NCBI RefSeq assembly: GCF_006335145.1
Contig: NZ_VDMN01000001.1
Coordinates: 2,046,001 to 2,110,000, forward strand
From: Aliirhizobium smilacinae
Lineage (GTDB): Bacteria; Pseudomonadota; Alphaproteobacteria; Rhizobiales; Rhizobiaceae
Direction: 5' to 3'
Length of the DNA stretch: 64,000 nucleotides
The position numbers and the translations under genes were made by a program. The notes below the pieces were generated by a model, which saw only the letters and a list, made by a program, of their open reading frames with translations, made no database searches and was not told the DNA's origin. Position 1 is the stretch's first letter. Each line of letters starts with the position of its first letter. Below are positions 40,995 to 54,846 of this stretch, piece after piece.

Positions 40995-41000
40995 TCGTAT

Positions 41001-41492
41001 CTATGACGACGCGGCTGCATCAGCCCCGACGACATTCTGGGCGACGTCTATCCAGACGGCGCCCGTCAATCTCGCCATATGCATCGGATTGATTCGTACA
41101 GCTGCATTGGTATCGCCGGCGGCCGGGACCACTTCATCAAAGCGCTGCAGCGACACGTCGCAATAGACCGGCAAATCAGAGGTCAGACCGAACGGGCAGA
41201 CGCCTCCCACCGGATGGCTCGTGATCTCAACCACATCCTCACCGCCCAGCATGCGTGGCTTGGTACCGAATCGAGACCGGAATTTCTTGTTATCAAGACG
41301 AGCGGTGCCGGCCATGACGACGATCATCGTTTCGTCGCCGGCGCGTAAACATATGCTTTTGGCGATCTGATCGGGTTCGACCCCATGGGCGGCAGCGGCC
41401 AACGGCACCGTCGCGGAACTGGCTTCGGTGACGATCACCTCAATATCGGGGGCGTGTTCGGCGAAAAATGCCTGGACGGAAGAAAGACTCAT
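41001..41492 (-). CDS. YbaK/EbsC-family aminoacyl-tRNA deacylase
   Basis: This 163-residue protein of the YbaK/ProX family hydrolyses mischarged tRNA in trans (for example Cys-tRNA-Pro). Family features are the Lys in DQIAKSICL, the GTARLDNKKFRSRFG segment and GGVCPFGL, which forms the active-site loop. The exact misacylated tRNA cannot be told. ATGs at 41510 and 41492 are possible; MSLSSVQAFF at 41492 matches the usual N-terminus. It is convergent with the small membrane-protein gene, only six bases apart, with no terminator between. Confidence 0.85.
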   Translation of the reverse strand: MSLSSVQAFFAEHAPDIEVIVTEASSATVPLAAAAHGVEPDQIAKSICLRAGDETMIVVMAGTARLDNKKFRSRFGTKPRMLGGEDVVEITSHPVGGVCPFGLTSDLPVYCDVSLQRFDEVVPAAGDTNAAVRINPMHMARLTGAVWIDVAQNVVGADAAASS

Positions 41493-41611
41493 TTCGCAAA
41501 GATCGCGCATGTGTCGTTTTTAGGCAAGCCCACTCAAAGCCATGCGCCGAACGCATCACTGCGCTGCAAAACCGTGGCTGTTTTTTAGGCTCGCCTCCTG
41601 TATAGTCAAAT

Positions 41612-41727
41612 CATCGACGGACGCACTCCTCCTCCCAGTGTCCTCGATGGGACCAGCAACACCTCCTCCTCCCGGTTGTTGGTCAGTTTCAGAAGCCCGG
41701 CGCACCTCCTCCCGCGCCGGGTTTTCT
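41612..41727 (+). ncRNA. Triple-hairpin anti-Shine-Dalgarno small RNA (alpha-r14/CcsR-like)
   Basis: Three hairpins each display CCTCCTCCC-type loops. The first is CATCGA/TCGATG with inner CACT/AGTG and loop CCTCCTCCC (41628-41636). The second is GACCAGCAAC/GTTGTTGGTC around ACCTCCTCCTCCCG (41661-41674). The third is the terminator CCCGGCGC/GCGCCGGG (41696-41703/41714-41721) around ACCTCCTCCC, followed by TTTT. TATAGT at 41601-41606 is a good -10 six bases before the first stem. The loops are complementary to ribosome sites, as in the CcsR (cuckoo) and alpha-r14 RNAs of Alphaproteobacteria, which are stress-linked. No protein frame overlaps. Confidence 0.88.
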
Positions 41728-41883
41728 GTATTTTAATCCCTCACGCATGAAAATCTAAAGCCTCAGGCAGCATTAACAGTGGCTGCCATCTCAACCTATG
41801 GCGTTGATATTGCTTTATCTTTTGAAATTACCCTTTAAGATTGCATAGCTCACGCGGATCGCACCCGAAGCGTAGCAGCAATC

Positions 41884-41912
41884 TTGACGAACATTGGGCC
41901 AAGCCCTAAGTG
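41884..41912 (+). promoter_or_regulatory. Candidate promoter of the cold-shock gene with long leader
   Basis: TTGACG (41884-41889), 17 bases, then TAAGTG (41907-41912) resembles a rhizobial housekeeping promoter with a strong -35 and weak -10. It would give a leader of about 135 bases, typical for csp genes. The rest of the gap from 41730 to 42054 shows no gene that I can support. Confidence 0.35.
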
Positions 41913-42054
41913 CGTATGGATCGAAATTTGTCTGATGGCCAGCACCGGGCTATTGCCACGCTTGCGACGTTCTACTCTGCAAAGTTCGAAGTTCAATCTG
42001 TTCCTTCCGGACTTCCGGGAGGAGCTGTCGGTCATTGCAAAGAAAGGCATCGAT

Positions 42055-42264
42055 ATGGCGACGGGTACAGTTAAGTGGTTCAATGCGACCAAGGGTTACG
42101 GCTTCATTTCGCCTGACGATGGCGGTGCGGACGTTTTCGTTCACATCTCCGCTGTTGAGCGCGCAGGCCTAGGCCAGCTTCAGGACGGCCAGAAGCTCTC
42201 CTTCGAGCTGGTAACGGATCGCCGTTCCGGCAAGGTTGCAGCTGACCAGCTGCAGGCCGCTTAA
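42055..42264 (+). CDS. cspA: Cold-shock protein (CspA family)
   Basis: This is a 69-residue single cold-shock domain that binds single-stranded RNA and DNA and melts RNA structure. RNP1 is seen in [11 protein letters not shown] and RNP2 in [28 protein letters not shown] is the classic N-terminus, so the ATG at 42055 is preferred over the longer frame opening at 41884. AAAGG lies about nine bases before it. A 12-bp G+C-rich hairpin follows the stop. It is preceded by an anti-SD small RNA, so the locus holds two RNA-level regulators side by side. Confidence 0.95.
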
Positions 42265-42272
42265 TAAAATTC

Positions 42273-42302
42273 AGCTCGCGGCGGCCTCTGCCGCCGCGAG
42301 CT
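42273..42302 (+). terminator. Strong hairpin after the cold-shock gene
   Basis: AGCTCGCGGCGG (42273-42284) and CCGCCGCGAGCT (42291-42302) form a perfect 12-bp stem with loop CCTCTG, 8 bases after the stop. There is no T-run, so termination may be Rho-assisted or the hairpin may protect the mRNA end. Confidence 0.6.
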
Positions 42303-42479
42303 TCCAGATGACCGTCACTTATCGGTCCCGGCGACAGTCTTGAAACGACCGGAACGCCTCCCCATATCAAGCTCAACAGCATTTCCGGCGAACATCTGTC
42401 ACACACCGTTATCGTGTAACGGCGAATGATGAGGCGAATACGGGAAACCGTGCCATTTCGACACAGACAGCAAGTCCTT

Positions 42480-42495
42480 TTAACGGTCTGTTAAC
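42480..42495. promoter_or_regulatory. Candidate CtrA box
   Basis: TTAA-CGGTCTG-TTAAC matches the CtrA pattern TTAA-N7-TTAA(C). It lies about 100 bases before the candidate RNA at 42583 and 270 bases before the ltrA-like gene. The target is not obvious. Confidence 0.4.
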
Positions 42496-42582
42496 CTGCC
42501 TGAGAGATGATGAATGCCACAGAGTTGCATGGATCATATCGATCCTTAACGCAGCCGCGACGGAATGCTTGACCCGTTTGTA

Positions 42583-42650
42583 GTGACCACGGATGTACTG
42601 GCACAGTGAGCGGGATTGGAAAGGTCGGGCTTGCCCGGCCTTTTTGTTTT
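42583..42650 (+). ncRNA. Candidate small RNA A with CGGATGTAC loop and terminator
   Basis: GTG-A-CCA / TGG-CAC (42583-42589/42599-42604) forms a short stem around the loop CGGATGTAC. It is followed 15 bases later by a strong terminator AAAGGTCGGG/CCCGGCCTTT (42620-42629/42634-42643) with loop CTTG and a T-rich tail to 42650. The same loop occurs on another stem at 51294. A CTTGAC -35-like hexamer lies at 42569-42574. No supported protein frame overlaps; the rest of the 460-base gap shows no gene. Confidence 0.45.
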
Positions 42651-42766
42651 CCAGCACATGTCTGCGCCCACATCAAATATTCCCGGCCATCCGCTCCTTT
42701 TATCATCCCGCGCCCTAAATCCGTCCTCCAGTTTGCCGGACACGGCCAAAGCACAGGAAATATGGA

Positions 42767-43948
42767 ATGGCCGAAGGCAAACATCACTGGCTACGCAAGG
42801 AAGACACCGAATCAACCAAGGCGAGCTTTCCCGAACTGTTTTTCGATCTCGTCTTCGTCTTCGCGCTGATCCAGCTTTCGGAAACCCTGGCGTCCGATTT
42901 TTCCCTAGGAATCGCCTTCGACGCGCTGATTTTCATCCTCGCGCTCTGGTGGGTGTGGATCCATACGACCTGGGTGACAAACCTGCTCGATGCCGAAGTC
43001 GTTGCAGTCAGATTGCTGCTGTTCGGGCTGATGTTTCTCGGTATCGTGCTGGCAATTGCTCTTCCCAAGGCCTTTGACGAGGCAGGGCTCGTTTTTGCAT
43101 TGGCCTATGCGGCGATGCAGCTCAGCCGTTCGCTGTTTGCACTCTATGCCTTCAGAGGAGTCGACACCGAATCGTTCATGACTTTCGCGCGGATCACGGT
43201 GTGGCTGCTTGTCTCCAGCGCGTTCTGGGTCGCCGGCGGGCTTGTCAGTCCGGAAAGCCGCGCCCTGTTCTGGCTTGTGGCGCTGGCGATCGAATATGTC
43301 GCGCCGCTGCTGCGCTACTGGACACCGGGCGTGGGTGCCTCACCTGCCGAGACGCTCGACGTCAACGGCGAACATCTTGCCGAACGATGCGCCTTGTTCG
43401 TCATCATCGCACTCGGCGAAACGATCATCACAACAGGCAAGACCGCCTCTGATCACGCCGACGAAGGCGGCATCATATTCCTCGTCCTCGTCGCTGCCTT
43501 CCTGTCGACGGTGCTGATGTGGTGGATCTATTTCCACGACGGGCAGGAACGCGCCGCCGATACCGCAGAAGACACGACCGAGCCGCAAAGCACGGCGGAT
43601 CATCTTTTCACCTATGGGCATCTGCCGATCGTCGCCGGCATCATTCTGACCGCAGTCGGCGAGGATTTCACGCTCACCCATCCCCATGACGAAGGCGGCT
43701 ACGCCAACGCGTTGGCTATTCTCGGCGGTCCCATCCTGTTTCTCGCAGGAACCTTGTGGATGAAGACAGTATCATCACGCATGGTGCCGTGGTCGCATTG
43801 CCTCGGCGTTGCTGCCGCTCTAGCAGGCTTCCTTCTCGTCCCCCATGTGGAGAATGTCCTGATCCAGCTCATGGCCGTGACCATTCTTCTGGCCGTCGCT
43901 CTCTGGGAATATATCGCGCTCAGGCTTTTCCGCCGCGCCGCCGCCTGA
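42767..43948 (+). CDS. LtrA-family low-temperature requirement membrane protein
   Basis: This 393-residue integral membrane protein has about ten spans. The family motif SFPELFFDLVFVFALIQLSE stands near residue 20, followed by WVWIHTTWVTN and a later conserved FVIIALGETIITTG. LtrA was named in Listeria for growth at low temperature, but its biochemical role is unknown. The ATG at 42767 follows AGGAAAT. It is followed directly by the convergent slyX gene, the two stops abutting. Placement near a cold-shock gene is suggestive but may be chance. Confidence 0.82.
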   Translation: MAEGKHHWLRKEDTESTKASFPELFFDLVFVFALIQLSETLASDFSLGIAFDALIFILALWWVWIHTTWVTNLLDAEVVAVRLLLFGLMFLGIVLAIALPKAFDEAGLVFALAYAAMQLSRSLFALYAFRGVDTESFMTFARITVWLLVSSAFWVAGGLVSPESRALFWLVALAIEYVAPLLRYWTPGVGASPAETLDVNGEHLAERCALFVIIALGETIITTGKTASDHADEGGIIFLVLVAAFLSTVLMWWIYFHDGQERAADTAEDTTEPQSTADHLFTYGHLPIVAGIILTAVGEDFTLTHPHDEGGYANALAILGGPILFLAGTLWMKTVSSRMVPWSHCLGVAAALAGFLLVPHVENVLIQLMAVTILLAVALWEYIALRLFRRAAA

Positions 43949-44155
43949 TCAATAGTGCGGAGGCCGGGTGACCGGTACGGCCTCGCCTGTCGATTCCTCA
44001 AGCGTCAGAAACCGTTCGGTCAGCCGGTCGAGCTTGGCGCGGGTCTGTTCGACCACCTTCCATTGTTCGGCGAGCTGGTCGGACAGTTCATCGATCACCT
44101 TGGCCTGATGGGCCGCGAGCTCTTCCAGCTGCACCAGTCTCGACTCGTCACTCAC
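43949..44155 (-). CDS. slyX: SlyX family protein
   Basis: SlyX is a small coiled-coil protein of unknown function found next to slyD in enterobacteria. The 68-residue product from the GTG at 44155 (preceded by GAGAGGAT) has a heptad pattern (VQLEELAAHQAKVIDELSDQ) and ends in the family tail PVTRPPHY. A longer frame from a TTG at 44182 adds nine residues without support. It lies tail to tail with the LtrA gene and 81 bases downstream of the chemoreceptor gene on the same strand. Confidence 0.85.
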   Translation of the reverse strand: MSDESRLVQLEELAAHQAKVIDELSDQLAEQWKVVEQTRAKLDRLTERFLTLEESTGEAVPVTRPPHY

Positions 44156-44236
44156 GGCGGCATCCTCTCGATGATCTTGCAAACCTGCATATAGGTCGGG
44201 ATTTAGAGGATGCCCGTGATCCGGTCCAGCCTTCGA

Positions 44237-45736
44237 TCAGGCGCTGAGCCTTGGGCGGTCCTGATAGGCGCTTGCGGAACCGCTCGTCCTGAAACGTGCC
44301 ACGGATGTTGCAAGGCTGTGGCTGATGCCGACAAGGCTCTGCGCTGCGGCATTCGTTTCCTCCATCAGCGCGGCATTCTGCTGGGTGATCTGATCCATGC
44401 TGCGGACGGAGGCGTTGATTTCGTCGATGCCGGAAGCCTGCTCCTGCGCCGAATGCGCGATCGATGTTATATGCGTGTCGATTGCCTTCACCCGCGTGCC
44501 GATGCCGGTCAGCGCTTCACCAGCGCGGTTGACGAGACTGACGCCGCGCTGCACGTCGCCGGCGGAACGGTCAATCAGTTCCTTGATTTCCTTGGCGGCT
44601 GCGGCCGATCGTTGTGCCAGTTCGCGCACTTCCTGGGCGACGACGGCAAACCCCTTGCCCTGCTCGCCCGCACGCGCCGCCTCGACACCGGCGTTCAGTG
44701 CCAGCAGATTGGTCTGAAAGGCTATCTCGTCGATGGCACCGATGATCTGGGTCATCTTCTGGGACGATTCGGCTATATCACCCATGGCAGAGATCGCCTG
44801 ATCGACAACCTCGCCGTTCTTCTTTGTCTCTGCAGCCGATTCCCGGATGATGCTCTGTACTTCCTGCGTTCGCCGTGCCGCCTGGCCGGAGAGCACGGTG
44901 ATCTGCTCAAGCGCTGCCGCAGTCTGTTCGAGCGATGCCGCCTGCTGCTCGGTGCGCTTCGCCATATTGTCGGCCGCAGACGAAATATCGCCGACTTCCG
45001 CGCGCACCCGACCAACAGACTGATTGATCTCTCCGAGTGCCGCATCGAGCGCCGCGACGGAGGAATTGTAATTCGCCTTCAGGCCATGGAAATTCGGCGC
45101 CAGTTCCTGACGCAGATCTGCCGTCAGATCACCATCCGCAAGATTCTTCAGCGCCTGACCCAGAGCCTCAAGAGCCTCGTCCTGCTCCTGCTTGGCAGCG
45201 ACACGCTCGGCCTCCACTTTTTTGCGGCCGTCTTCCAGGGCTTCCAGATAGACGGAGATGGCGTAATCCATATCGACCATCGCCGCCTTGAGCACAGCCG
45301 AAAGGTGATCGGCCAGCACACCGGCCTTCTTTTCCAGGAAAAAGCCCTTCATTTCCCCGGCGATAACAGCGCGGATGATGCCATCGAGAATGAGAACATA
45401 GCCACCGATATACCAGCGCGGCTCCAGACCAAGCCGGGCATGGGTCTTGCCGATGGCTGAAACCGCATCGACATAACCGCCATCGTAACGGCCCGACGAG
45501 ATGACGTCCCAATGGCTGGCCTGACGTTCCTTTGCATGGGTGACATGCGCTTCGCTGGCGAAGAACTTTGCGGTGTGAGGATGCGCTTTCGCCTTGCGAT
45601 AGAAGGCATCGAGCGCCGGGCCAACGGCATCCTTGACGATCGGCCGCACGTCCGCGAGATGGTTGCGCTCGGTTTCGCCCAGCCCGACGAAATTCAGGCG
45701 ATCGGCGAGTGCGGCCTTCTGATCTTGGCTTGTCAT
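44237..45736 (-). CDS. Soluble globin-coupled methyl-accepting chemoreceptor (HemAT-like)
   Basis: This 499-residue protein has no membrane span. The first 170 residues are a protoglobin sensor domain with the proximal haem His in [13 protein letters not shown] (His99). A HAMP-like segment ([19 protein letters not shown]) follows. The C-terminal two-thirds is a methyl-accepting signalling helix pair whose tip [20 protein letters not shown] binds CheA/CheW. No C-terminal NWETF-type CheR tether is present. Such receptors sense oxygen for aerotaxis. A CtrA-type site lies about 75 bases before the start, as in other alphaproteobacterial motility genes. Confidence 0.93.
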
Positions 45737-45811
45737 AGTTTCCCCCTGTCCGGTGTTGAGCCGCCCTGCAGGAGGACGGAATCATTCTCGACAAGGTCTA
45801 CACGCTAAAAT

Positions 45812-45826
45812 TTAACGCCTCATTAG
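45812..45826. promoter_or_regulatory. Candidate CtrA box before the chemoreceptor gene
   Basis: TTAA-CGCCTCA-TTAG fits the CtrA pattern TTAA-N7-TTAA with one mismatch. It is about 75 bases upstream of the minus-strand chemoreceptor start at 45736 and 155 bases from recF. Confidence 0.35.
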
Positions 45827-45982
45827 CCACCCACCCTAGGTTTTCATTAATCATAACTTGTTGTCGATGTTCTAAATGATGGTCGCCTCCAGTTCGTGTG
45901 ACGGACTGCTACTTCGAGCCCGGCGCTTGCGTTCTGCAATGCAACTCCTTAGCTCCTGTGCAACGACAAACCGCGATTCCCT

Positions 45983-47116
45983 ATGGCGCAAAAGACCTCA
46001 ATCTCCCGGCTCAAGCTTACCGACTTCCGCAACTATGCGGCGGCTTCGCTTGTGCTCGACAGCAGGCATGTGGTGCTGACGGGAGAAAACGGTGCCGGCA
46101 AAACCAATCTGATGGAGGCCATATCCTTCCTTTCGCCGGGACGCGGCTTCAGGCGGGCGGTCCTGACCGATGTAACGCGGGTCGGCGCGGACGGTGGCTT
46201 TACGATATTCGCCGATCTCGACGGCATGGAGGGCGAGGTTGCGATCGGCACCGGCATAGAACCCGGCGACGGCGAGAGTGTCAGCCGCAAGGTCAGGATC
46301 AACAGTACCCCCGCCAAATCCACCGAGGAGCTTTCCGACCATTTGAACGTATTGTGGCTGACGCCGTCGATGGACGGGCTGTTTACCGGTTCCTCGTCGG
46401 ACCGGCGGCGGTTTCTCGACCGGCTGGTCCTGTCGCTCGATCCTGCCCACGGTCGGAGGGCAAGCGATTTCGAGCGCGCCATGCGCAGTCGCAACAGGCT
46501 CCTCTCGGAAGGCCGGTTTGATCCTTCCTGGTTGACCGGCATCGAGACGCAGATGGCCGAGCTCGGGATTTCCATGGCCGCCGCAAGACATGAAATGCTG
46601 GGTCTCCTGCAATCCCTGTCGGTGAATTCGGCAGAGACCCCGTTTCCGACTCCCGCCCTGACACTCGAGGGTTTCATGGATGGCGGCATGGACCGCCCGG
46701 CCGCGGATCTCGAAGACGATTATCTCGAAGCTTTGCGCAACGGGCGCGGACGCGATGCCGCCGCCGGGCGCACGCTGGAAGGCCCGCACCGTGTCGATCT
46801 TCTCGTGCGCCATCACGAGAAGAATATCGAGGCTGCGCGATGCTCGACCGGAGAGCAGAAGGCATTGCTGATCGGCCTCATTCTCGCGCATGCAAGATTG
46901 ACGGCCGACATGACAGGCTTTGCGCCGATCCTGCTGCTCGACGAAATCGCAGCGCATCTCGACGAGGGACGACGGGCGACCCTGTTCGATCTGGTGGATG
47001 GGCTCGGCGGCCAGGCATTCATGACCGGCACCGACCAATCGATGTTTGCCGCGCTCGGCGACCGCGCCCAGTTCTTCACGGTTACCCACGGAAGCGTGAC
47101 ACCGGGAACCGTGTGA
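45983..47116 (+). CDS. recF: Recombination mediator RecF
   Basis: RecF, an SMC-like ATPase, helps load RecA at single-strand gaps with RecO and RecR; recR is also in this window (62016). The 377-residue protein shows Walker A TGENGAGKTNLMEA near residue 33, the signature CSTGEQKALLIGLILAHA and Walker B PILLLDEIAAHLD. It is complete. It starts at ATG 45983; no strong ribosome site is visible. It is followed by moeB-like gene 33 bases later on the same strand. Confidence 0.94.
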   Translation: MAQKTSISRLKLTDFRNYAAASLVLDSRHVVLTGENGAGKTNLMEAISFLSPGRGFRRAVLTDVTRVGADGGFTIFADLDGMEGEVAIGTGIEPGDGESVSRKVRINSTPAKSTEELSDHLNVLWLTPSMDGLFTGSSSDRRRFLDRLVLSLDPAHGRRASDFERAMRSRNRLLSEGRFDPSWLTGIETQMAELGISMAAARHEMLGLLQSLSVNSAETPFPTPALTLEGFMDGGMDRPAADLEDDYLEALRNGRGRDAAAGRTLEGPHRVDLLVRHHEKNIEAARCSTGEQKALLIGLILAHARLTADMTGFAPILLLDEIAAHLDEGRRATLFDLVDGLGGQAFMTGTDQSMFAALGDRAQFFTVTHGSVTPGTV

Positions 47117-47149
47117 CGAACACGCTTAACTGCCGCAGGCAGTAATGAT

Positions 47150-47944
47150 ATGAAAACGGACATGGAAACCCAACCTTCGCAATCACTGACGCAGGAAGAA
47201 ATCGAGCGTTATCGACGCCATATCCTGCTGCCGGAAATCGGCGGGACCGGCCAGCAGAAGCTGAAAAATGCGCGTGTGCTGGTGATCGGCGCCGGTGGGC
47301 TTGGTGCTCCGGTGCTCGAATATCTCGCGGCAGCCGGCATCGGCACGATCGGTATCGCCGACGATGACCGTGTCTCGCTCTCCAACCTGCAGCGTCAGGT
47401 GATCCACGATTCCGGCACGATCGGCGAGATGAAAACGAGAAGTGCGCGCGAAAAGATCGCCCGTCTCAATCCGCATGTCCGGGTCGTTGATTTCGAGGAG
47501 CGGTTTTCGGCCGAATGGGCAACACGGCATCTGCCGCGTTTCAGCCTTCTCGTCGATGGCTCCGATAATTCCGATACCCGTTATGCCGCCGCCGACGCGG
47601 CAGAGGCGGCGAAAATGCCACTCGTCACCGGCGCCGTGGGGCGCTTCGATGGCTCCGTCACCGTGCTCAAGCCCTACGAGGCCAGCGCAGATGGCATGCT
47701 CAATCCGGGTTATCGCGACCTGTTTCCGGAAAAGCCGCCGGAAGGCCTGATCCCAGCATGTGCGGAAACCGGTGTGGTCGGCGCGCTGACGGGTGTCATC
47801 GGCACCTTGATGGCGATGGAGGTGATCAAACTTGTCACCGGCATCGGCGAACCACTGGTCGGTCGCCTTATGCTCTATGACGCGCTGTCCGCCCGTTTCG
47901 ACACCATCAAATACAAACGCAGAAAAAGGCCTGCCTCCGAATGA
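47150..47944 (+). CDS. MoeB/ThiF-family adenylyltransferase lacking the zinc cysteines
   Basis: This E1-like enzyme (264 residues) adenylates the C-terminus of a ubiquitin-fold sulfur carrier such as MoaD or ThiS. The nucleotide motif VIGAGGLGAPVLEYLAAAG lies near residue 43, DDDRVSLSNLQRQVIH holds the conserved Arg, and the Asp loop VDGSDNSDTRY is present. The E. coli MoeB zinc cysteines (CxxC before LFPEP, and a C-terminal CxxC) are replaced: the first pair position reads GYRDLFPEKP. One Cys remains in IPACAETGV. Molybdopterin or thiamine partner cannot be decided. The start could also be ATG 47162. It overlaps the next gene by ATGA. Confidence 0.82.
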   Translation: MKTDMETQPSQSLTQEEIERYRRHILLPEIGGTGQQKLKNARVLVIGAGGLGAPVLEYLAAAGIGTIGIADDDRVSLSNLQRQVIHDSGTIGEMKTRSAREKIARLNPHVRVVDFEERFSAEWATRHLPRFSLLVDGSDNSDTRYAAADAAEAAKMPLVTGAVGRFDGSVTVLKPYEASADGMLNPGYRDLFPEKPPEGLIPACAETGVVGALTGVIGTLMAMEVIKLVTGIGEPLVGRLMLYDALSARFDTIKYKRRKRPASE

Positions 47945-48426
47945 TCGACATTGTCAGGATCAATGGCGGCTTCGGGAGTTGGGACGAATTGCTCGCCCTG
48001 ATTCTTTCTTCCTTTTCCTACATGGACGACCTCATCGATCCGCCCTCCTCCGCGCATCGGCTGACTCCTGCGTCGCTTGCGCAAAAGGCATCCGACGAGA
48101 TCGCCTTCGTCGCCGTCGAGGACGGCAGGCTTCTCGGTTGCGTTTTCCTGAGGCCCGAGGCTGAGTGCCTTTATGTCGGAAAACTGGCCGTGGCGCCCGG
48201 TCTGCAGGGGAAAGGCATCGGCCGCCGGCTGCTCGATGTCACGGAAAAGACCGCACAGGATCTCGGGTTATCAACGCTCAGGCTGGAGACGCGGATCGAG
48301 CTGGTCGGCAATCACACGACTTTTGGTCGCTGGGGATTTCGAAAGACTGCCGAAAAATCCCATCCGGGTTTCGAGCGGATCACCTACATCGAGATGTGCA
48401 AGGAGCTGGAACGCATTCCGGCCTGA
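47941..48426 (+). CDS. GNAT-family N-acetyltransferase
   Basis: This 161-residue protein has the GNAT fold. Acetyl-CoA motif A is VAPGLQGKGIGRRLLD near residues 84-99, preceded by strand ECLYVGKLAV and followed by GLSTLRLETRIE and the typical FGRWGFRKTAE end. The acceptor substrate cannot be predicted. It is coupled to the MoeB-like gene by a four-base overlap and ends two bases before the convergent dehydrogenase gene. Confidence 0.88.
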   Translation: MIDIVRINGGFGSWDELLALILSSFSYMDDLIDPPSSAHRLTPASLAQKASDEIAFVAVEDGRLLGCVFLRPEAECLYVGKLAVAPGLQGKGIGRRLLDVTEKTAQDLGLSTLRLETRIELVGNHTTFGRWGFRKTAEKSHPGFERITYIEMCKELERIPA

Positions 48427-48428
48427 AA

Positions 48429-49433
48429 TCAGTTCCGGCCCGGCAGAACGCGGTTCGGCGGACGGTGCCCGTCGAAAAAAGCCCTGATATTGATGATCAC
48501 CTTGTCGCCCATATCGATCCGGCCCTCGATCGTGGCCGATCCCATATGCGGCAACAGGACCACCTTGCCCTCATTGGCGAGCTTGACGAGCTTCGGATTG
48601 ATCGTCGGCTCGTTCTGGTAGACGTCGAGACCGGCACCGGCAATCTTGTCTTCGCGCAGCAGCTTGATCATCGCCATCTCGTCGATGATGTCACCACGGG
48701 CAGTGTTGACGATGATCGCCGTCGGCTGCATCAACGCCAAGCGCCGGGCCGAAACCAGATGGAAGGTTCCGGGCGTTGACGGGCAATTGACCGAAACGAT
48801 GTCGACGCGGGCCAGCATCTGATCGAGACTGTCCCAGTAAGTCGCTTCCAGTTCGCTCTCGGTTGCCTGATTTACCGGCTTGCGATTATGATAGTGGATC
48901 GCCAAACCGAAAGCCTTGGCGCGTCTCGCGACCGCCGTGCCGATCCGGCCCATTCCGATGATGCCGATCCGTTTGCCCCAAATCCGGCGCCCAAGCATCC
49001 AGGTCGGGCTCCAGCCACCCCATTCACCGGGATTGTCGGTGAGGATGCGCGAGCCTTCCGCAAGTCGTCGATTGACTGCGAGAATCAGCGCCATCGTCAT
49101 GTCCGCCGTGTCCTCGGTCAGCACGTTCGGCGTATTGGTAACGGTGATGCCCTTTTCGGCGGCGGCATCGACATCGATATGATCCGTACCGTTGGAAAAA
49201 CCGGCGATCAGTTTCATCTGCGGGCCTGCAGCGCTCAAAAGCTCCGCATCGATCTTGTCCGCGATTGTCGGCACAAGCACATCGACACTCGCCAGCGCTG
49301 CTGCAAGCTCTTCACGCGAACGCGGCCGGTCATCGATGTTCAGCTCGGCGTCGAAAAGTTCGCGCATCCGCGTCTCGACCGCATCCGGCAGCTTGCGCGT
49401 GATATAAACCCTGGGTCTTTTCTTCGCAGTCAT
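48429..49433 (-). CDS. D-2-hydroxyacid dehydrogenase (glyoxylate reductase-like)
   Basis: This 334-residue NAD(P)-dependent enzyme is of the D-isomer hydroxyacid dehydrogenase type and closer to GyaR/glyoxylate reductase than the one at 801-1757. The Rossmann motif IIGMGRIGTAVARRAKAFG lies near residue 157. The catalytic residues are Arg in VNTARGD, Glu in VYQNEP and His in PHMGSATIEGR. The substrate is inferred only. It has the ATG at 49433 and runs tail to tail with the GNAT gene. Confidence 0.9.
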   Translation of the reverse strand: MTAKKRPRVYITRKLPDAVETRMRELFDAELNIDDRPRSREELAAALASVDVLVPTIADKIDAELLSAAGPQMKLIAGFSNGTDHIDVDAAAEKGITVTNTPNVLTEDTADMTMALILAVNRRLAEGSRILTDNPGEWGGWSPTWMLGRRIWGKRIGIIGMGRIGTAVARRAKAFGLAIHYHNRKPVNQATESELEATYWDSLDQMLARVDIVSVNCPSTPGTFHLVSARRLALMQPTAIIVNTARGDIIDEMAMIKLLREDKIAGAGLDVYQNEPTINPKLVKLANEGKVVLLPHMGSATIEGRIDMGDKVIINIRAFFDGHRPPNRVLPGRN

Positions 49434-49588
49434 CGCTCCGCCACCGCAATTTTAGCAGGTCATTAACCAAGTCGCGCGATAGTCGATCCTATCCTTGGGC
49501 GTTCTAGCAGACCCACCGGCGAAGACAAACAAAACCTCGCAAGTGAGCCTTGAAGCACCTCCGCGGATCGTCAGTCAGGATCCCTACA

Positions 49589-50128
49589 ATGCGCCGCCTC
49601 ATCATCGTCATCGTCGCCATCTTCTTTCCCCTGATCGCAACGCTTTCCGCTATCGTCCCCGTCTATGCACAGGGCGCTGCCAAGGGCGCAAGCGGCCTGC
49701 CTCTGCCGCGGTTTGCCAGCCTGAAATCCAAAAAGGTCAACATCCGCATCGGCCCGAGCACCGATTACGCAGTCTCCTGGATGTACATGAAGGCAGGTAC
49801 GCCCATGGAGATTATCCAGGAATACGATAACTGGCGGCGGGTGCGTGATGCCGACGGTACGGAAGGCTGGGTAAACCAGGCGCTGCTTTCCGGCGAGCGC
49901 ACCGCCGTTGCCGCACCGTGGATGCGCGGCAAGGGTCAGGACATTTACGTCAACATGCGCCGCGACCCGCAAAGCTCGGCCGCAATCACTGCCAAGCTTC
50001 AGCCCGGTGTCCAGCTTACAGTCAAGGAATGCAACGGGGACTGGTGCCAAGCGGAAACCGGTGGCGCCGAGGGCTGGGTAGCCCAGGGCGAGGTCTGGGG
50101 CGTCTATCCCGGCGAGGCCTTCAGATAA
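49589..50128 (+). CDS. Exported SH3-domain protein
   Basis: This 179-residue protein has a signal peptide (MRRLIIVIVAIFFPLIATLS, cut near VYAQG) and two bacterial SH3-like repeats: KSKKVNIRIGPSTDYAVSWM to EGWVNQALLSG, and GQDIYVNMRRDPQSSAAITA to EGWVAQGEVWG. Such domains bind peptidoglycan peptides, so a periplasmic cell-wall role is likely. The ATG at 49589 gives a clean signal peptide; a start at 49550 is less likely. Its last eight bases overlap the end of the adenosine kinase gene on the other strand. Confidence 0.85.
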   Translation: MRRLIIVIVAIFFPLIATLSAIVPVYAQGAAKGASGLPLPRFASLKSKKVNIRIGPSTDYAVSWMYMKAGTPMEIIQEYDNWRRVRDADGTEGWVNQALLSGERTAVAAPWMRGKGQDIYVNMRRDPQSSAAITAKLQPGVQLTVKECNGDWCQAETGGAEGWVAQGEVWGVYPGEAFR

Positions 50129-51113
50129 GGCCTGCCTCGACTGCCGCGTCTTTCAACGACACCAACGGGCGCGGGCCGAGCTGCTGGATCACCACGGCTG
50201 CCGCGAGGCAACCGAGTTTGCCGCAATCTTCCAGCGACCGGTCCTGGGTGTAGCCATAAAGGAAGCCGGAGGCGAAGAGGTCGCCAGCACCTGTCGTATC
50301 GACCAGTTCGTCGATCGCATAGGCATCGATCTTCATTCGCTCTTTGCCGCGGACGATGACAGCTCCCTCTCCACTCAAAGTAACCGCCGCCAGCTTGCAG
50401 TCCACCGCAATCTTGCCGAGAGCAAGTTCGAAATCTTCCGTTTCGTAGAGCGACAGCAGTTCATGCTTGTTGGCAAAAACGATGTCGACGGTGCCCGACC
50501 TCATCAGATCGAGGAATTCCGCGCGATAACGGCCGACACAGAAGGGATCGGAAAGCGTCATCGAGACTTCACGGCCGTTTGCATGGGCGATACGGGCTGC
50601 TGCGCGGATGGCATCCTTGGCGCGCGGCGGATCCCATAGATAACCTTCGAAATAGGTGACCCTGGCTTCGGCGACGACTTCTTCCTCGACATGCTCGGGA
50701 CCAAGCTCGACGCAGGCGCCGAGATAGGTATTCATCGAACGCTCCCCATCGGGCGTGACGAAGATCATCGAGCGGGCAGTCGGCGGATGCAGGCCTTCCG
50801 GCGTGGTCTGGTAATGTACGCCCTGAGCGCGGATATCATGCTGGAAGATCTGCCCCAGCTGATCTTCGGCCACCTTGCCGAAATAGGCTGCCTTGCCGCC
50901 GAAACCGGCAATGCCGGCGGCGGTGTTGCCAGCCGAACCGCCTGAGGCTTCCACCGCAGGGCCCATCTTGGAATAGAGAAGTTCGGCGCGCTCGGCATCG
51001 ATCAGGTTCATGGCGCCCTTGATGATCGCGTTTTCTTCGAGAAACGTATCCTCGCAGCGGGCAAGGATATCAACGATGGCATTGCCGATGGTCAGCACGT
51101 CGAACTTTGGCAT
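50121..51113 (-). CDS. adoK: Adenosine kinase (PfkB family)
   Basis: This ribokinase-family sugar/nucleoside kinase has 330 residues. The N-terminal block VLTIGNAIVDILA and the glycines of EASGGSAGNTAAGIAGFGGK (about residue 57) bind the ribose. The second PfkB signature VDTTGAGDLFASGFLYG contains the catalytic Asp near the C-terminus. Alphaproteobacterial proteins of this type are annotated as adenosine kinases; activity on other nucleosides or sugars cannot be excluded. Its start is 120 bases from a Pho-box-like repeat that points the other way. Confidence 0.87.
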   Translation of the reverse strand: MPKFDVLTIGNAIVDILARCEDTFLEENAIIKGAMNLIDAERAELLYSKMGPAVEASGGSAGNTAAGIAGFGGKAAYFGKVAEDQLGQIFQHDIRAQGVHYQTTPEGLHPPTARSMIFVTPDGERSMNTYLGACVELGPEHVEEEVVAEARVTYFEGYLWDPPRAKDAIRAAARIAHANGREVSMTLSDPFCVGRYRAEFLDLMRSGTVDIVFANKHELLSLYETEDFELALGKIAVDCKLAAVTLSGEGAVIVRGKERMKIDAYAIDELVDTTGAGDLFASGFLYGYTQDRSLEDCGKLGCLAAAVVIQQLGPRPLVSLKDAAVEAGLI

Positions 51114-51232
51114 TCACTCTTCATCCTGGTCTATTGGAAGCTGCGTCATGGGTAGTGACCTTTTCCGCCCAAGGAAAGAAGAAATATATGCCCGGCAAAC
51201 CCGTTCTCGCCGCAGATCATCGAGATTATCAT

Positions 51233-51266
51233 CTGTCATCCGGCCGTCACGGTTTCTGCCTATGTT
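51233..51266 (+). promoter_or_regulatory. Near-perfect Pho box with -10 in the adoK-AEC gap
   Basis: CTGTCAT (51233-51239), CCGG, CCGTCAC (51244-51250) matches the PhoB pattern CTGTCAT-N4-CTGTCAC at 13 of 14 positions. TATGTT at 51261-51266 is in the right place for a -10. It is directed toward the hairpin RNA at 51273 and the AEC carrier gene at 51432, not toward adoK. Confidence 0.65.
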
Positions 51267-51272
51267 GCCCAT

Positions 51273-51337
51273 GTCCGGTACGGTTGGCTGCCACGGATGT
51301 ACTGGCGGCTGGCTGCCGGATTTTTCTTTTTCCGGCA
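51273..51337 (+). ncRNA. Candidate small RNA B (or leader) with CGGATGTAC loop
   Basis: CGGTTGGCTGCCA (51281-51293) pairs with TGGCGGCTGGCTG (51303-51315), 13 bp including five G-T pairs that only work as RNA, around the loop CGGATGTAC. GCCGGATTTTTCTTTTT follows, and TGCCGGA/TCCGGCA (51314-51320/51331-51337) is an alternative hairpin. The loop is identical to that of candidate A at 42590, while the stem differs. The Pho box above would start transcription near 51273. It may end at the T-run or read into the AEC gene. The rest of the 318-base gap shows no gene. Confidence 0.5.
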
Positions 51338-51431
51338 TAGGACAGGACAAGAGCAGAGTTGCATATCTGCATTTGTTGCTCGCGGCCTTATGCGTTAGAC
51401 GCATGGGATCAGAATATTCCAAGGTCCTCCC

Positions 51432-52376
51432 GTGTCACTCGTCCTCGCAAACGTTCTTCCCGTCTTCATTCTCATTCTGCTCGGCTGGCTGATTGCCAAA
51501 TCCGGCCTTCTCAAAGCGGAAACGGGAGATGCGCTCGGCGAATTCGTCTTCAAGATCGCCGTTCCAATGTTGATCTTCCGGACATTGGCAACGGCGCATT
51601 TCGAAGGTGTTTCCCCCTTCAGATTGTGGACGGCCTATTTTATCGGCGTTGCGGTCACCTGGACCATAGGATCCCTTCTTGCCAGGCGCGCCTTCGGACG
51701 CGATGCCAAGGTTGCGGTGATTGCCGGCATGTCGGCGAGTTTCGCCAACAATGTCTTCATCGGCCTGCCGCTTGTCGATCATATCGTCGGGCAGGACGGT
51801 CTCGTGGCAATCTCCATCCTTCTCGCCATTCACCTGCCGATCATGATGATCGTCGGCACGATCCTGATGGAGAGCGCCTCGGCCAAAGTGGACGGCACGG
51901 CTGCCCGCGGCATACCCGCCGTGCTGAAACAGGTCGGATCGAACCTTGCACGCAATCCGCTCGTGATCGCGTTGACACTCGGGCTTGCCTTCAACCTTTC
52001 CGGCCTGTCGATGAACGCGCCCGTAGCTCTCGTCGTCGATCAGATCGCCGGCTCTGCCAGCCCGGCTGCGCTGATTTCGATCGGCATGGCGCTGACACGG
52101 TATCAGATCAAGGGCGATCTCGGGCTCTCCTCCACCGCAGCCGTCCTCAAGCTATTCCTTATGCCGGCGTCCGTGTTTGCGGCCTGCAGGCTGCTCGACC
52201 TGCGGCCGGACTGGACCGCCGCGCTGGTTTTGACCTCTTCGGTTCCGACAGGCATCAATGCCTGGTTGATTGCACAGCGTTTCCGCACCAGCCAAAGCCT
52301 CGCCGCCTCGGTTATCAGCATCACAACGGCCTTCGGCGTCATCTCCGTCAGCATGTGGGCCTGGTTGCTCTCCTGA
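51432..52376 (+). CDS. AEC-family transporter (auxin efflux carrier type)
   Basis: This 314-residue membrane protein has about ten spans in two halves. Typical segments are FVFKIAVPMLIFRTLATAHF, SASFANNVFIGLPLVDHIVG (the conserved Asn/Gly break) and SSVPTGINAWLIAQRFRTS. AEC carriers move organic acids such as malate or malonate; the substrate here is unknown. The start is GTG at 51432 with AAGG upstream. A Pho-type promoter lies about 165 bases before it, so phosphate control is possible. A hairpin follows the stop. Confidence 0.88.
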   Translation: MSLVLANVLPVFILILLGWLIAKSGLLKAETGDALGEFVFKIAVPMLIFRTLATAHFEGVSPFRLWTAYFIGVAVTWTIGSLLARRAFGRDAKVAVIAGMSASFANNVFIGLPLVDHIVGQDGLVAISILLAIHLPIMMIVGTILMESASAKVDGTAARGIPAVLKQVGSNLARNPLVIALTLGLAFNLSGLSMNAPVALVVDQIAGSASPAALISIGMALTRYQIKGDLGLSSTAAVLKLFLMPASVFAACRLLDLRPDWTAALVLTSSVPTGINAWLIAQRFRTSQSLAASVISITTAFGVISVSMWAWLLS

Positions 52377-52394
52377 CAGACGCTCGAACGCATA

Positions 52395-52415
52395 ACGCCC
52401 GGCAGAACCGGGCGT
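52395..52415. terminator. Hairpin between AEC carrier and cycM genes
   Basis: ACGCCCGG (52395-52402) and CCGGGCGT (52408-52415) make a perfect 8-bp stem with loop CAGAA between two convergent genes. The T-tract is weak, so termination strength is uncertain. Confidence 0.55.
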
Positions 52416-52458
52416 CATCGCTTTAACAATTCAAGCTTTGCAATTCGGCAGCACCGAA

Positions 52459-53040
52459 TCAATTGGTCGCCGGCTCGGGTGCGTTCGGATCCGGTAGCGG
52501 TGCCGGGCTATCGGACTGTTCGCGGATATAGGCGAGCAGATTGGCGCGTTCCTTGTCGTTCTTGATACCGGCAAAGCCCATGGCGGTTCCCTTCACGTAA
52601 GCTTTCGGGCCGGACAGGAAGTGGTTCAGGTGATCGAAGGTCCAGGTTTCCTGGCCCCCCTTGGAAAAGTCCTTCATCCCGGCCGAATAAGAAAAGCCCT
52701 CATGCGTGGCAACCGGACGGTTCACCAGACCCCAGAGATCGGGGCCGACCTTGTTTGGCCCGCCCTTCTCGATCGAATGACAGCTTTGACACTTCTTGAA
52801 AACGGCAGCACCGGCGGTGGCATCCGCACTCGCCAGGAGTTGCCCAACCGGAACAGCTGCAGGCGCAGCCCCGGCGCCAGCCGCTTCACCACCAGCCGGC
52901 TCCTCAGCGGCGGCGATGGCGAAACCTGCCTTTTCGGGCACAGGCGAATGAAAAATACCTTCCGAGGCGATCGACACAGACATCATCACGAAAACCGTGG
53001 CGAGCAATGCACCGACCGACATATTGACATAGGGGTTCAT
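52459..53040 (-). CDS. cycM: Membrane-anchored cytochrome c (CycM type)
   Basis: This 193-residue c-type cytochrome is held to the inner membrane by an uncleaved N-terminal anchor ([20 protein letters not shown]). An Ala/Gly/Pro-rich linker precedes a class I haem domain with CQSCH near residue 91, [13 protein letters not shown], and the axial Met in [12 protein letters not shown]. In rhizobia CycM carries electrons between the bc1 complex and aa3 oxidase. The ATG at 53040 follows AAGGAG by seven bases; the longer open frame upstream (to 53427) is a shadow of kdsB. Confidence 0.92.
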
Positions 53041-53209
53041 CAAGAGCTCCTTCCCAACCCGTTGGCTTCCCTTTGACCCAACTTGCGGTACAAACGGCCA
53101 TCTTGCAATCGCGCGGAAGCTATGTCTTTTGCCAAATCGTTGCAATTGGAAACAAAATGCGCGGCATGAGACTATTTGACACTCTTGACGCGGGAATAGA
53201 AGGCTTTCG

Positions 53210-53968
53210 ATGACACAACTGGTCTCGACAAAAACACTGGTCCTTATCCCGGCCCGCATGGCCTCGACGCGCCTGCCGAACAAGCCGCTCGCCGATATCG
53301 CCGGGTTGCCGATGATCGTGCAGGTGGCAAAACGTGCGCAAGAAGCACAGGTCGGCCGCGTTGTCGTGGCCGTCGACGAGCAGGTCGTTTTCGATGTCGT
53401 CAAGGCCGCCGGTTTCGATGTCGTCATGACCCGCCAGGATCACCAGTCCGGTTCCGACCGCATTTACGAGGCGCTGCAGAAAGCCGATCCCGACGCGAGG
53501 GCGGAATTCGTCATCAACGTTCAGGGCGACCTGCCGACGGTCGAGCCGGACGTGGTTCGTGCGTCGCTGCGCCCGTTGCTCGAAAATGCCTCGACCGACA
53601 TCGCGACACTGACCGTCGAGATTACCGACGAACATGAAAAGACCAATCCCAACGTAGTGAAGATCGTCGGCTCGCCGATCTCCGACACGCGGCTGAAAGC
53701 GCTCTACTTTACCCGCGCAACCGCCCCTTATGGCGATGGGCCGCTTTACCATCATATCGGCCTCTATACCTACCGGCGTGCGGCACTGGAAAAATTCGTG
53801 TCGCTCGGACCGTCGCCATTGGAAATGCGTGAGAAGCTGGAGCAGCTGAGAGCGCTCGAGGCCGGAATGCGCATCGATGCGGAAATCGTCCATTCGATCC
53901 CGCTCGGCGTCGATACGCAGGCCGATCTCGACAAAGCCCGCGCGATCCTGACGTCGCGCCAATCCTGA
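53210..53968 (+). CDS. kdsB: 3-deoxy-manno-octulosonate cytidylyltransferase
   Basis: KdsB activates Kdo with CTP to CMP-Kdo for the inner core of lipopolysaccharide. The 252-residue protein shows [20 protein letters not shown] with the CTP-binding loop near residue 15, [12 protein letters not shown] holding the metal-binding Asp, and the C-terminal [15 protein letters not shown]. pheA starts 11 bases after the stop, so the two form an operon. Divergent from cycM. Confidence 0.95.
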
Positions 53969-53979
53969 AGAGGCACCAG

Positions 53980-54846
53980 ATGACGACCACGCCTACCAAT
54001 CGCATCGCCTTCCAGGGTGACTACGGCGCCAATTCCGACATGGCCTGCCGCGACATGTTTCCGGATATGGAACCCCTGCCCTGCGCCACCTTCGAGGATG
54101 CATTCCAGGCGCTTGAAAGCGGCGAAGCGGATCTTGCGATGATCCCGATCGAGAACACGATCGCCGGGCGCGTGGCGGACATCCATACCCTGCTGCCGGA
54201 ATCGCGCCTGCATATCATCGGCGAATATTTCATGCCAATCCGCTTCCAGCTGATGGTGATGCCTGGCGTCAAGCATGACGAAATCCGTACCGTACACAGC
54301 CATATCCATGCGCTCGGCCAGTGCCGCAAGATCATCCGCTCGAACGGCTGGAAGGCCGTCGTTGCCGGAGATACGGCGGGAGCCGCCAAGATGGTGGCGG
54401 AAAAGGGCGATCGGACAATGGCAGCGCTTGCCCCGCGGCTCGCTGCCGATCTCTACAAGCTCGAGATTCTGGCCGAAAATGTCGAAGACACGGAAAACAA
54501 CGTGACACGCTTCGTCGTTCTCTCGCGGGACGAGAGGTGGGTGCAGCGGAACGATTTGGACGACATGATCGTCACGACCTTCGTGTTCAACGTCCGCAAC
54601 ATTCCCGCCGCGCTCTACAAGGCGATGGGCGGATTTGCGACCAACGGCATCAACATGACGAAGCTCGAAAGCTACCAGCTGGGCGGCAAGTTCGTCGCAA
54701 CGCAGTTCTATGCGGATATCGAAGGCCATCCGGATGACGCGCCGGTACGCCGGGCACTGGAAGAGCTGCGGTTCTTCTCGGAAAAGGTCCGCATCCTCGG
54801 CACCTACAAGGGCCACCCGATGCGCGGGACATTGCAGAAGGCGTAA
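53980..54846 (+). CDS. pheA: Prephenate dehydratase
   Basis: This enzyme decarboxylates and dehydrates prephenate to phenylpyruvate in phenylalanine synthesis. The 288-residue protein lacks a chorismate mutase domain, as usual in this class. RIAFQGDYGANSDMA opens the catalytic domain, and the signature Thr-Arg-Phe lies in NNVTRFVVLS. The C-terminal ACT domain (GGFATNGINMTKLESYQLGG) binds phenylalanine for feedback inhibition. It follows kdsB by 11 bases. Confidence 0.95.
   Translation: MTTTPTNRIAFQGDYGANSDMACRDMFPDMEPLPCATFEDAFQALESGEADLAMIPIENTIAGRVADIHTLLPESRLHIIGEYFMPIRFQLMVMPGVKHDEIRTVHSHIHALGQCRKIIRSNGWKAVVAGDTAGAAKMVAEKGDRTMAALAPRLAADLYKLEILAENVEDTENNVTRFVVLSRDERWVQRNDLDDMIVTTFVFNVRNIPAALYKAMGGFATNGINMTKLESYQLGGKFVATQFYADIEGHPDDAPVRRALEELRFFSEKVRILGTYKGHPMRGTLQKA

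Follow-up and report, generated by a model that had tools for sequence, protein, structure and literature searches.

A small RNA gene of Aliirhizobium smilacinae, very probably conserved and Pho-box-driven, as a reduced variant of the SmelB053/alpha-r35 family

Small RNAs of the SmelB053 family are found in several copies per genome; their first stem-loop is variable, the second carries the conserved loop GGAUGUA, and a terminator follows (Reinkensmeier et al. 2011, PMC3927594). The family list comprises SmelB050, SmelB053 (= SmrB35) and SmelC691, for which a role as 'interceptor transcripts' is proposed, and the same hairpin is present in related 3'UTRs, 29 of 33 of which are at cold-shock genes (PMC3927594). 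SmrB35 is raised moderately by luteolin (PMC2780559), and the section of PMC2573895 that discusses smrB35 does so without a predicted PhoB site. SmelC691 is an 83-nt transcript, 3048822-3048904, detected by RNA-seq (PMC2873474).

The window analysed here is a stretch of 64,000 nucleotides from Aliirhizobium smilacinae. Between a kinase gene and a carrier gene it holds an element which, judged by sequence comparison, has the loop of a known family, SmelB053/alpha-r35 (Rfam RF02346, ar35). The best explanation, which we hold to be highly probable, is that 51274-51331 encodes a small Pho-regulon RNA that stands alone and would act in trans through this shared loop. The features of the region are as follows.

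50121-51113, minus strand: pfkB-family kinase gene (PF00294)
51233-51250, plus strand: Pho box CTGTCAT-CCGG-CCGTCAC (CTGTCAT-N4-CCGTCAC), from sequence, kept in same-genus loci
51261-51266, plus strand: -10 element TATGTT, 10 nt 3' of the Pho box and 7 nt before the hairpin
51274-51331, plus strand: predicted sRNA of ~58 nt, from a predicted start 7 nt behind the -10 element to the final T of the tract
51274-51320, plus strand: 18-pair hairpin interrupted by a 2-nt bulge, from the fold and model R1
51294-51302, plus strand: loop CGGATGTAC, conserved family core, from sequence comparison
51321-51331, plus strand: T tract TTTTTCTTTTT immediately 3' of the loop hairpin, where Rho-independent termination probably takes place
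51432-52376, plus strand: AEC-type carrier gene (PF03547)
42548-42649, plus strand: sibling, RF02346 ar35 member (49.3 bits, cut-off 45) with the same 15-base core at 42588-42602 and a separate terminator

The promoter has two 7-nt half-sites 11 nt apart, placed 10 nt before the -10 element, as in the Pho regulon. A sequence-only reading of this DNA had described a near-perfect Pho box (13/14) followed by TATGTT in the -10 position, and both are present; within 2 mismatches of CTGTCAT-N4-CTGTCAY the sole place in the 64 kb is 51233-51250, with 1 mismatch. At least one such place also occurs in 31/100 shuffles, so the Pho box match alone is weak evidence. The box joined to a TA at the right spacing (YGTCAYN5YGTCAYN10TA) is found once in the window and in 0/100 shuffles. 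A simple sigma-70 scan finds no plus-strand promoter at the element, which fits a promoter with a Pho box in place of the -35.

The hairpin has a minimum free energy of -29.1 kcal/mol (z = -3.7), and the loop bases are predicted to be free of pairing save for one G-C pair. The earlier reading had given a 13-bp stem, which corresponds to the 12 inner pairs but falls short of the full stem of 18 pairs with its bulge; the T-rich tract that it placed after the stem is there. Two terminator-like sites are predicted here, 51302-51319 and 51353-51370. The loop sequence occurs at exactly two places in the window, 42590 and 51294, a number reached in 2/100 shuffles, and the two stems differ in sequence, both as previously reported. 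The identity between the two places runs beyond the nine bases then noticed to the stretch CACGGATGTACTGGC (15/15 identical), for which 0/100 shuffles have two matches within 2 mismatches.

In the genus, blastn with 51215-51350 matches 12 of 57 genomes, the own one included; ten of the matches are this locus and two (L021, L023) are other core copies. The half-sites, the TA of the -10 and the hairpin from its predicted start are conserved in the alignment of the orthologs, and the sequence between them is variable. Model R1, a covariance model of the 47-base hairpin alone with no promoter sequence, matches 24 of the 57 genomes at E<=2.8e-7, including 14 outside the model; two weaker matches (L054, L057) share this locus layout, and the pattern search gives one further same-genus genome (G023). 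In all 24 loci, the 14 outside the model among them, GTCAY-N6-GTCAY precedes the core by 41-43 nt and a TA follows the box after ten bases. For the 19 loci with 41- or 42-nt spacing, the 5/24 loci with 43-nt spacing being left out, the half-sites average 0.92 and 0.97 in column identity, against 0.58 for the spacer and 0.49 for the sequence upstream. Outside the genus R1 has five matches, of which L030 and L031 are without the core and L032 is a csp 3'UTR. The other two, L028 and L029, have Pho-like boxes and an RNA longer than the collection pattern allows, so that the pattern counts (71 stretches; 25/394) are undercounts.

This pattern, GTCAY-N6-GTHAY-N{35,64}-CACGGATGWACTGGC, finds 71 stretches with Pho box and core in 84,980 species genomes, mostly of Rhizobiaceae and with two in some genomes. 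They belong to Ensifer/Sinorhizobium (18), Rhizobium (13), Shinella (12), Neorhizobium (11), Rhizobiales isolates (7) and Pleomorphomonas (5), with one each in Aliirhizobium, Aureimonas, a Rhizobiaceae MAG, a Beijerinckiaceae MAG and a Proteobacteria MAG. The 72 distinct promoter windows of this set share features that the pattern does not demand, namely a pyrimidine before each half-site (71/72) and T (69/72) and A (71/72) at the -10, and these extra conserved features fit a Pho promoter. The promoter window that lacks A at the -10 belongs to a tandem in L097 (Rhizobium sp. CF080), where it is the outer box; L097 has a third Pho half-site. Sinorhizobium shofinae (L086) has two Pho-type copies ~0.5 kb apart, and one genome of Ensifer sesbaniae (L078, L122) has a T-loop and an A-loop Pho copy.

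The core is common and the Pho form is a minority. Among the family genomes, 318/394 (91/109 genera) have the core and 25/394 (6/109 genera) have it with a Pho box, and the own genome has a Pho box at one of its three exact core copies only. Since the core without Pho box is far commoner, phosphate control would be a property of the clade and not of the family. The Pho box is beyond chance, as a box with its spacing shifted by 2 nt (N8, not N6) together with the core is found in 0/394 family genomes.

The stem is kept by covariation beneath a fixed loop. The loop-closing pairs are formed in the minimum free energy fold at 72/72 collection places, where arms shuffled around the fixed core fold worse than the real ones (mean z -2.5). 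Covariation was counted in 51 distinct windows that have GACC ahead of the core, a set that leaves out loci without GACC, the window's own clade included. Outer pairs 1-5 are formed in 46, 42, 40, 35 and 38 of these windows, with 3, 5, 5, 5 and 5 pair types, each count above all 500 shuffles; pairs 4 and 5 top them by one only, and the shuffles ignore kinship. Pairs 6-8 of the 51 windows are within the shuffle range, in 27 windows taken for comparison from 30 loci that lack a Pho box pair 2 alone exceeds all shuffles, and no double changes of the stem are found among 10 close orthologs. A search of relatives for the loop with complementary arms and Pho box, with covariation, is the check that the earlier reading had proposed, and the element passes it.

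The loop is CGGATGTAC at 42/72 places and CGGATGAAC at 30/72, the two variants that the pattern allows; L048 has CGGATGGAC, with G at the variable place. A T run lies within 115 nt downstream at 66/72 collection places, versus 2 in a control stretch. In subfamily 2, which has 15 same-genus loci, CCTGGACGAGACCAGG or a variant of it comes after the loop hairpin and is succeeded by the terminator AGCGGGG...CCCCGCTTTTT, and Sinorhizobium and Pleomorphomonas have a GGTCGGG-type terminator after the loop hairpin. In the window's clade (subfamily 1, nine genomes) the separate terminators are gone and the T tract comes directly after the loop hairpin in 6/9, the tract being poor in L018-L020.

The sequence-only reading spotted the loop repeat but recognised neither the known sRNA family nor the membership of the copy at 42590. 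This sibling lies downstream of a cold-shock gene, the frame 41884-42264 ending in cold-shock protein sequence, and has no Pho box before it, as a pattern search of the own genome gives the 51233 place only. An ar14-type sRNA (RF02344, 105 bits, cut-off 58.8) with three CCUCCUCCC loops, at 41609-41729 on the plus strand, directly precedes the cold-shock gene and the ar35 copy. The own genome has three exact CGGATGTACTGGC copies and four matches above the RF02346 cut-off. The element at 51274 does not reach the gathering score of 45 bits and is unreported up to E = 1 in 41000-54000; its orthologs L012, L024, L037, L039, L040 and L026 are unreported up to E = 5, and the ortholog L027 has 23.8 bits. 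The Pho-type loci of S. meliloti and Pleomorphomonas score 46.0 and 66.3 bits. In Sinorhizobium kostiense, L068:1892-2035 is a second, sub-threshold ar35 match (41.1 bits), located directly behind a tRNA gene and 1.2 kb before the Pho-type copy. In two same-genus genomes (L053, L058) a frame ending KFDYDKMKK has the core a short way past its stop codon, which suggests that 3'UTR copies are not confined to cold-shock genes.

In the proposed mechanism, phosphorylated PhoB would occupy the Pho box under low phosphate and recruit sigma-70 RNA polymerase to the -10 at 51261-51266; induction of the RNA by low phosphate is what general knowledge of Pho promoters leads one to expect. The RNA of ~58 nt would fold to one hairpin that exposes the loop CGGAUGUAC, which would be its working part, and this hairpin would double as its own terminator. 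As the loop is common to SmelB053/alpha-r35 RNAs and cold-shock 3'UTRs, the Pho RNA most likely joins, under phosphate starvation only, a pool of RNAs that act via the same loop. Its loop would bind target mRNAs by pairing with a complement of the UACAUCC type. This pairing step and the targets are the least certain parts; pairing has about an even chance of being right, and we rank it first, with a decoy for a protein second.

As a decoy, the PhoB-driven RNA would offer its loop as the landing site of a protein, such as an RNase, Hfq or a cold-shock protein, and would draw this protein off mRNAs with the same hairpin, comparable to the 'interceptor transcripts' proposed for SmelB053 (Reinkensmeier et al.). 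This is possible, though clearly the less probable reading. It would suit a loop that is retained on freely varying stems and in 3'UTRs, 29/33 at cold-shock genes (PMC3927594), and that tolerates T or A at one place (72/72 loci, by pattern) and G in L048. The lack of a conserved mRNA complement speaks for it too, but the target search is narrow and its failure weighs little; moreover, no protein partner is known, and CsrA is absent from the own genome. A wider and rather more speculative idea, doubtful at present, is a one-loop (GGAUGWA) RNA system of freely varying stems and cold-shock 3'UTRs, in which the PhoB-driven RNA would be a condition-specific switch that sequesters an RNA-binding protein or shared mRNAs; in the window's clade a single hairpin would then be interaction site, stability element and terminator.

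For the preferred reading, pairing with mRNA, the target pattern GTWCATCC-N{0,30}-RGGA-N{4,10}-ATG was searched in 12 genomes, with 2 to 13 matches per genome, and the translations of 30 loci were read. Recurring target strings among these loci either fall within coding frames or yield short ones, and no conserved mRNA target was found by this search and the checks of single sites. A seemingly intergenic target in three genomes (L161-L163) was rejected, being the same RNA's copy in reverse reading with closing pairs CCA/TGG changed to CCG/CGG. These are further core copies with altered closing pairs (CCGCGGATGTACCGGC in the three genomes), and another, CCATGGATGTACCGGC, is in the own genome (L001). 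Exact GTACATCCG occurs at 20 places in the own genome versus 29 for the reversed control; three of these 20 places are themselves RNA genes. The strongest candidate site spans codons 10-12 of an nlpD-like gene with M23 and LysM domains (own genome, C1:334024, minus strand, L164), which would form a 12-pair duplex with the loop at -20.2 kcal/mol. The site is in 8/9 genomes of the window's clade with equally conserved flanking codons, and GTACATCC or GTTCATCC stands at it in none of the 18 readable among the other 21 of 30 genomes; this gene is not claimed as a target. A candidate site in the pdhA leader would give a duplex of -16.6, and shuffles of that stretch reach -27.6.

The loop also resembles the CsrA binding motif. 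Sequestration of CsrA was rejected: PF02599 is absent from the own genome, and 3/14 control genomes match.

The sequence-only reading had left the choice between a small RNA and a leader of the AEC gene; the small RNA is supported, but the leader is not. The element shares its strand with the AEC gene and lies ~100 nt upstream of where that gene starts, and its hairpin and T tract could serve as an attenuator of 51432-52376, but strong separate terminators in the 15 same-genus subfamily-2 loci and other neighbours in other genera, such as the annotated cpdR1 and ilvD in S. meliloti, make a leader or attenuator very unlikely. Among the 20 loci whose surrounding frames were read by eye, relatives such as L083 and L095 have pfkB and AEC near the element, and two Shinella loci adjoin frames of >1400 aa. 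The Pho box and the -10 spacing are conserved, the loop is fixed and the element is independent of neighbouring genes. The covarying arms, the neighbours that differ by genus and the separate terminators argue for a trans-acting RNA, as which we infer it to be transcribed under PhoB dependence. A second conserved block at 51350-51425, between the RNA and the AEC start, contains TTGCATATCTGCATTTGTTGC and the inverted repeat ATGCGTTAGACGCAT and is probably the AEC gene's own control region.

A very small peptide encoded from the ATG in the loop is hardly credible, for although frames begin with MYW or MNW in the scanned loci, these first codons are dictated by loop and stem, and the frames diverge beyond them, with ends from 4 codons to past the 60 examined. 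Chance, that is, a Pho-box look-alike next to an ordinary terminator, is just as improbable: 31/100 shuffles have such a box, but box, spacing, -10, stem and loop are retained together across many species.

The S. meliloti Ak57 locus has GTCAC-N6-TTCAT, a Pho box with one mismatch in its second half-site, followed by ten bases, TAAGAG, the core and a terminator. MmgR (RF00519) starts at 411 of this locus and at 3046712 in the reference strain (PMC7143759), which places the expected SmelC691 at ~2521 to 2603 of the locus; judged by its promoter and T run, the RNA should span ~2513 to 2588. The Pho-type RNA of S. meliloti is probably SmelC691, the 8- and 15-nt offsets being likely strain differences. 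SmelC691 may be among the 45 sRNAs altered by nitrogen or phosphate stress, of which the pertinent part of PMC8829014 names only abcR1. Phosphate control of this RNA was not found in the open-access main texts searched.

The observation itself is confirmed, and the earlier interpretation is supported as largely right. The element is very probably a conserved, Pho-box-driven small RNA gene that adds a new variant, reduced in structure, to a known sRNA family; what is new is the Pho-box-driven clade and its single-hairpin form, the loop family being already known. The core is widespread (318/394 family genomes), often with several copies per genome, and no established function of the SmelB053/alpha-r35 core was found. 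The Pho clade has a clear candidate inducer, phosphate starvation via PhoB, and offers a defined condition under which such an RNA can be studied. The natural T/A swap of one loop base between clades could help to separate pairing from protein binding.

In comparison with SmelB053/ar35, the window element has the same GGAUGUA loop motif on a variable stem and several copies per genome. It differs in its layout, as the family has up to three stem-loops with a separate terminator last, still present in the subfamily-2 relatives and in other genera, whereas the element has one hairpin and a T tract. It differs also in its Pho box, of which the accessible descriptions of the family make no mention. 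The cold-shock 3'UTRs (e.g. SmelC521), found here behind csp-like frames in L004 and L032, have the same core and a terminator; they are part of an mRNA, whereas the window element would be a gene with its own promoter. S. meliloti smrC15/16, sm25 and sm30 are also sRNA candidates with a predicted PhoB site, at other loci (PMC2573895), and PhoB-dependent sRNAs elsewhere, such as the E. coli case cited in PMC8829014, are by their description alike in being small RNAs under PhoB.
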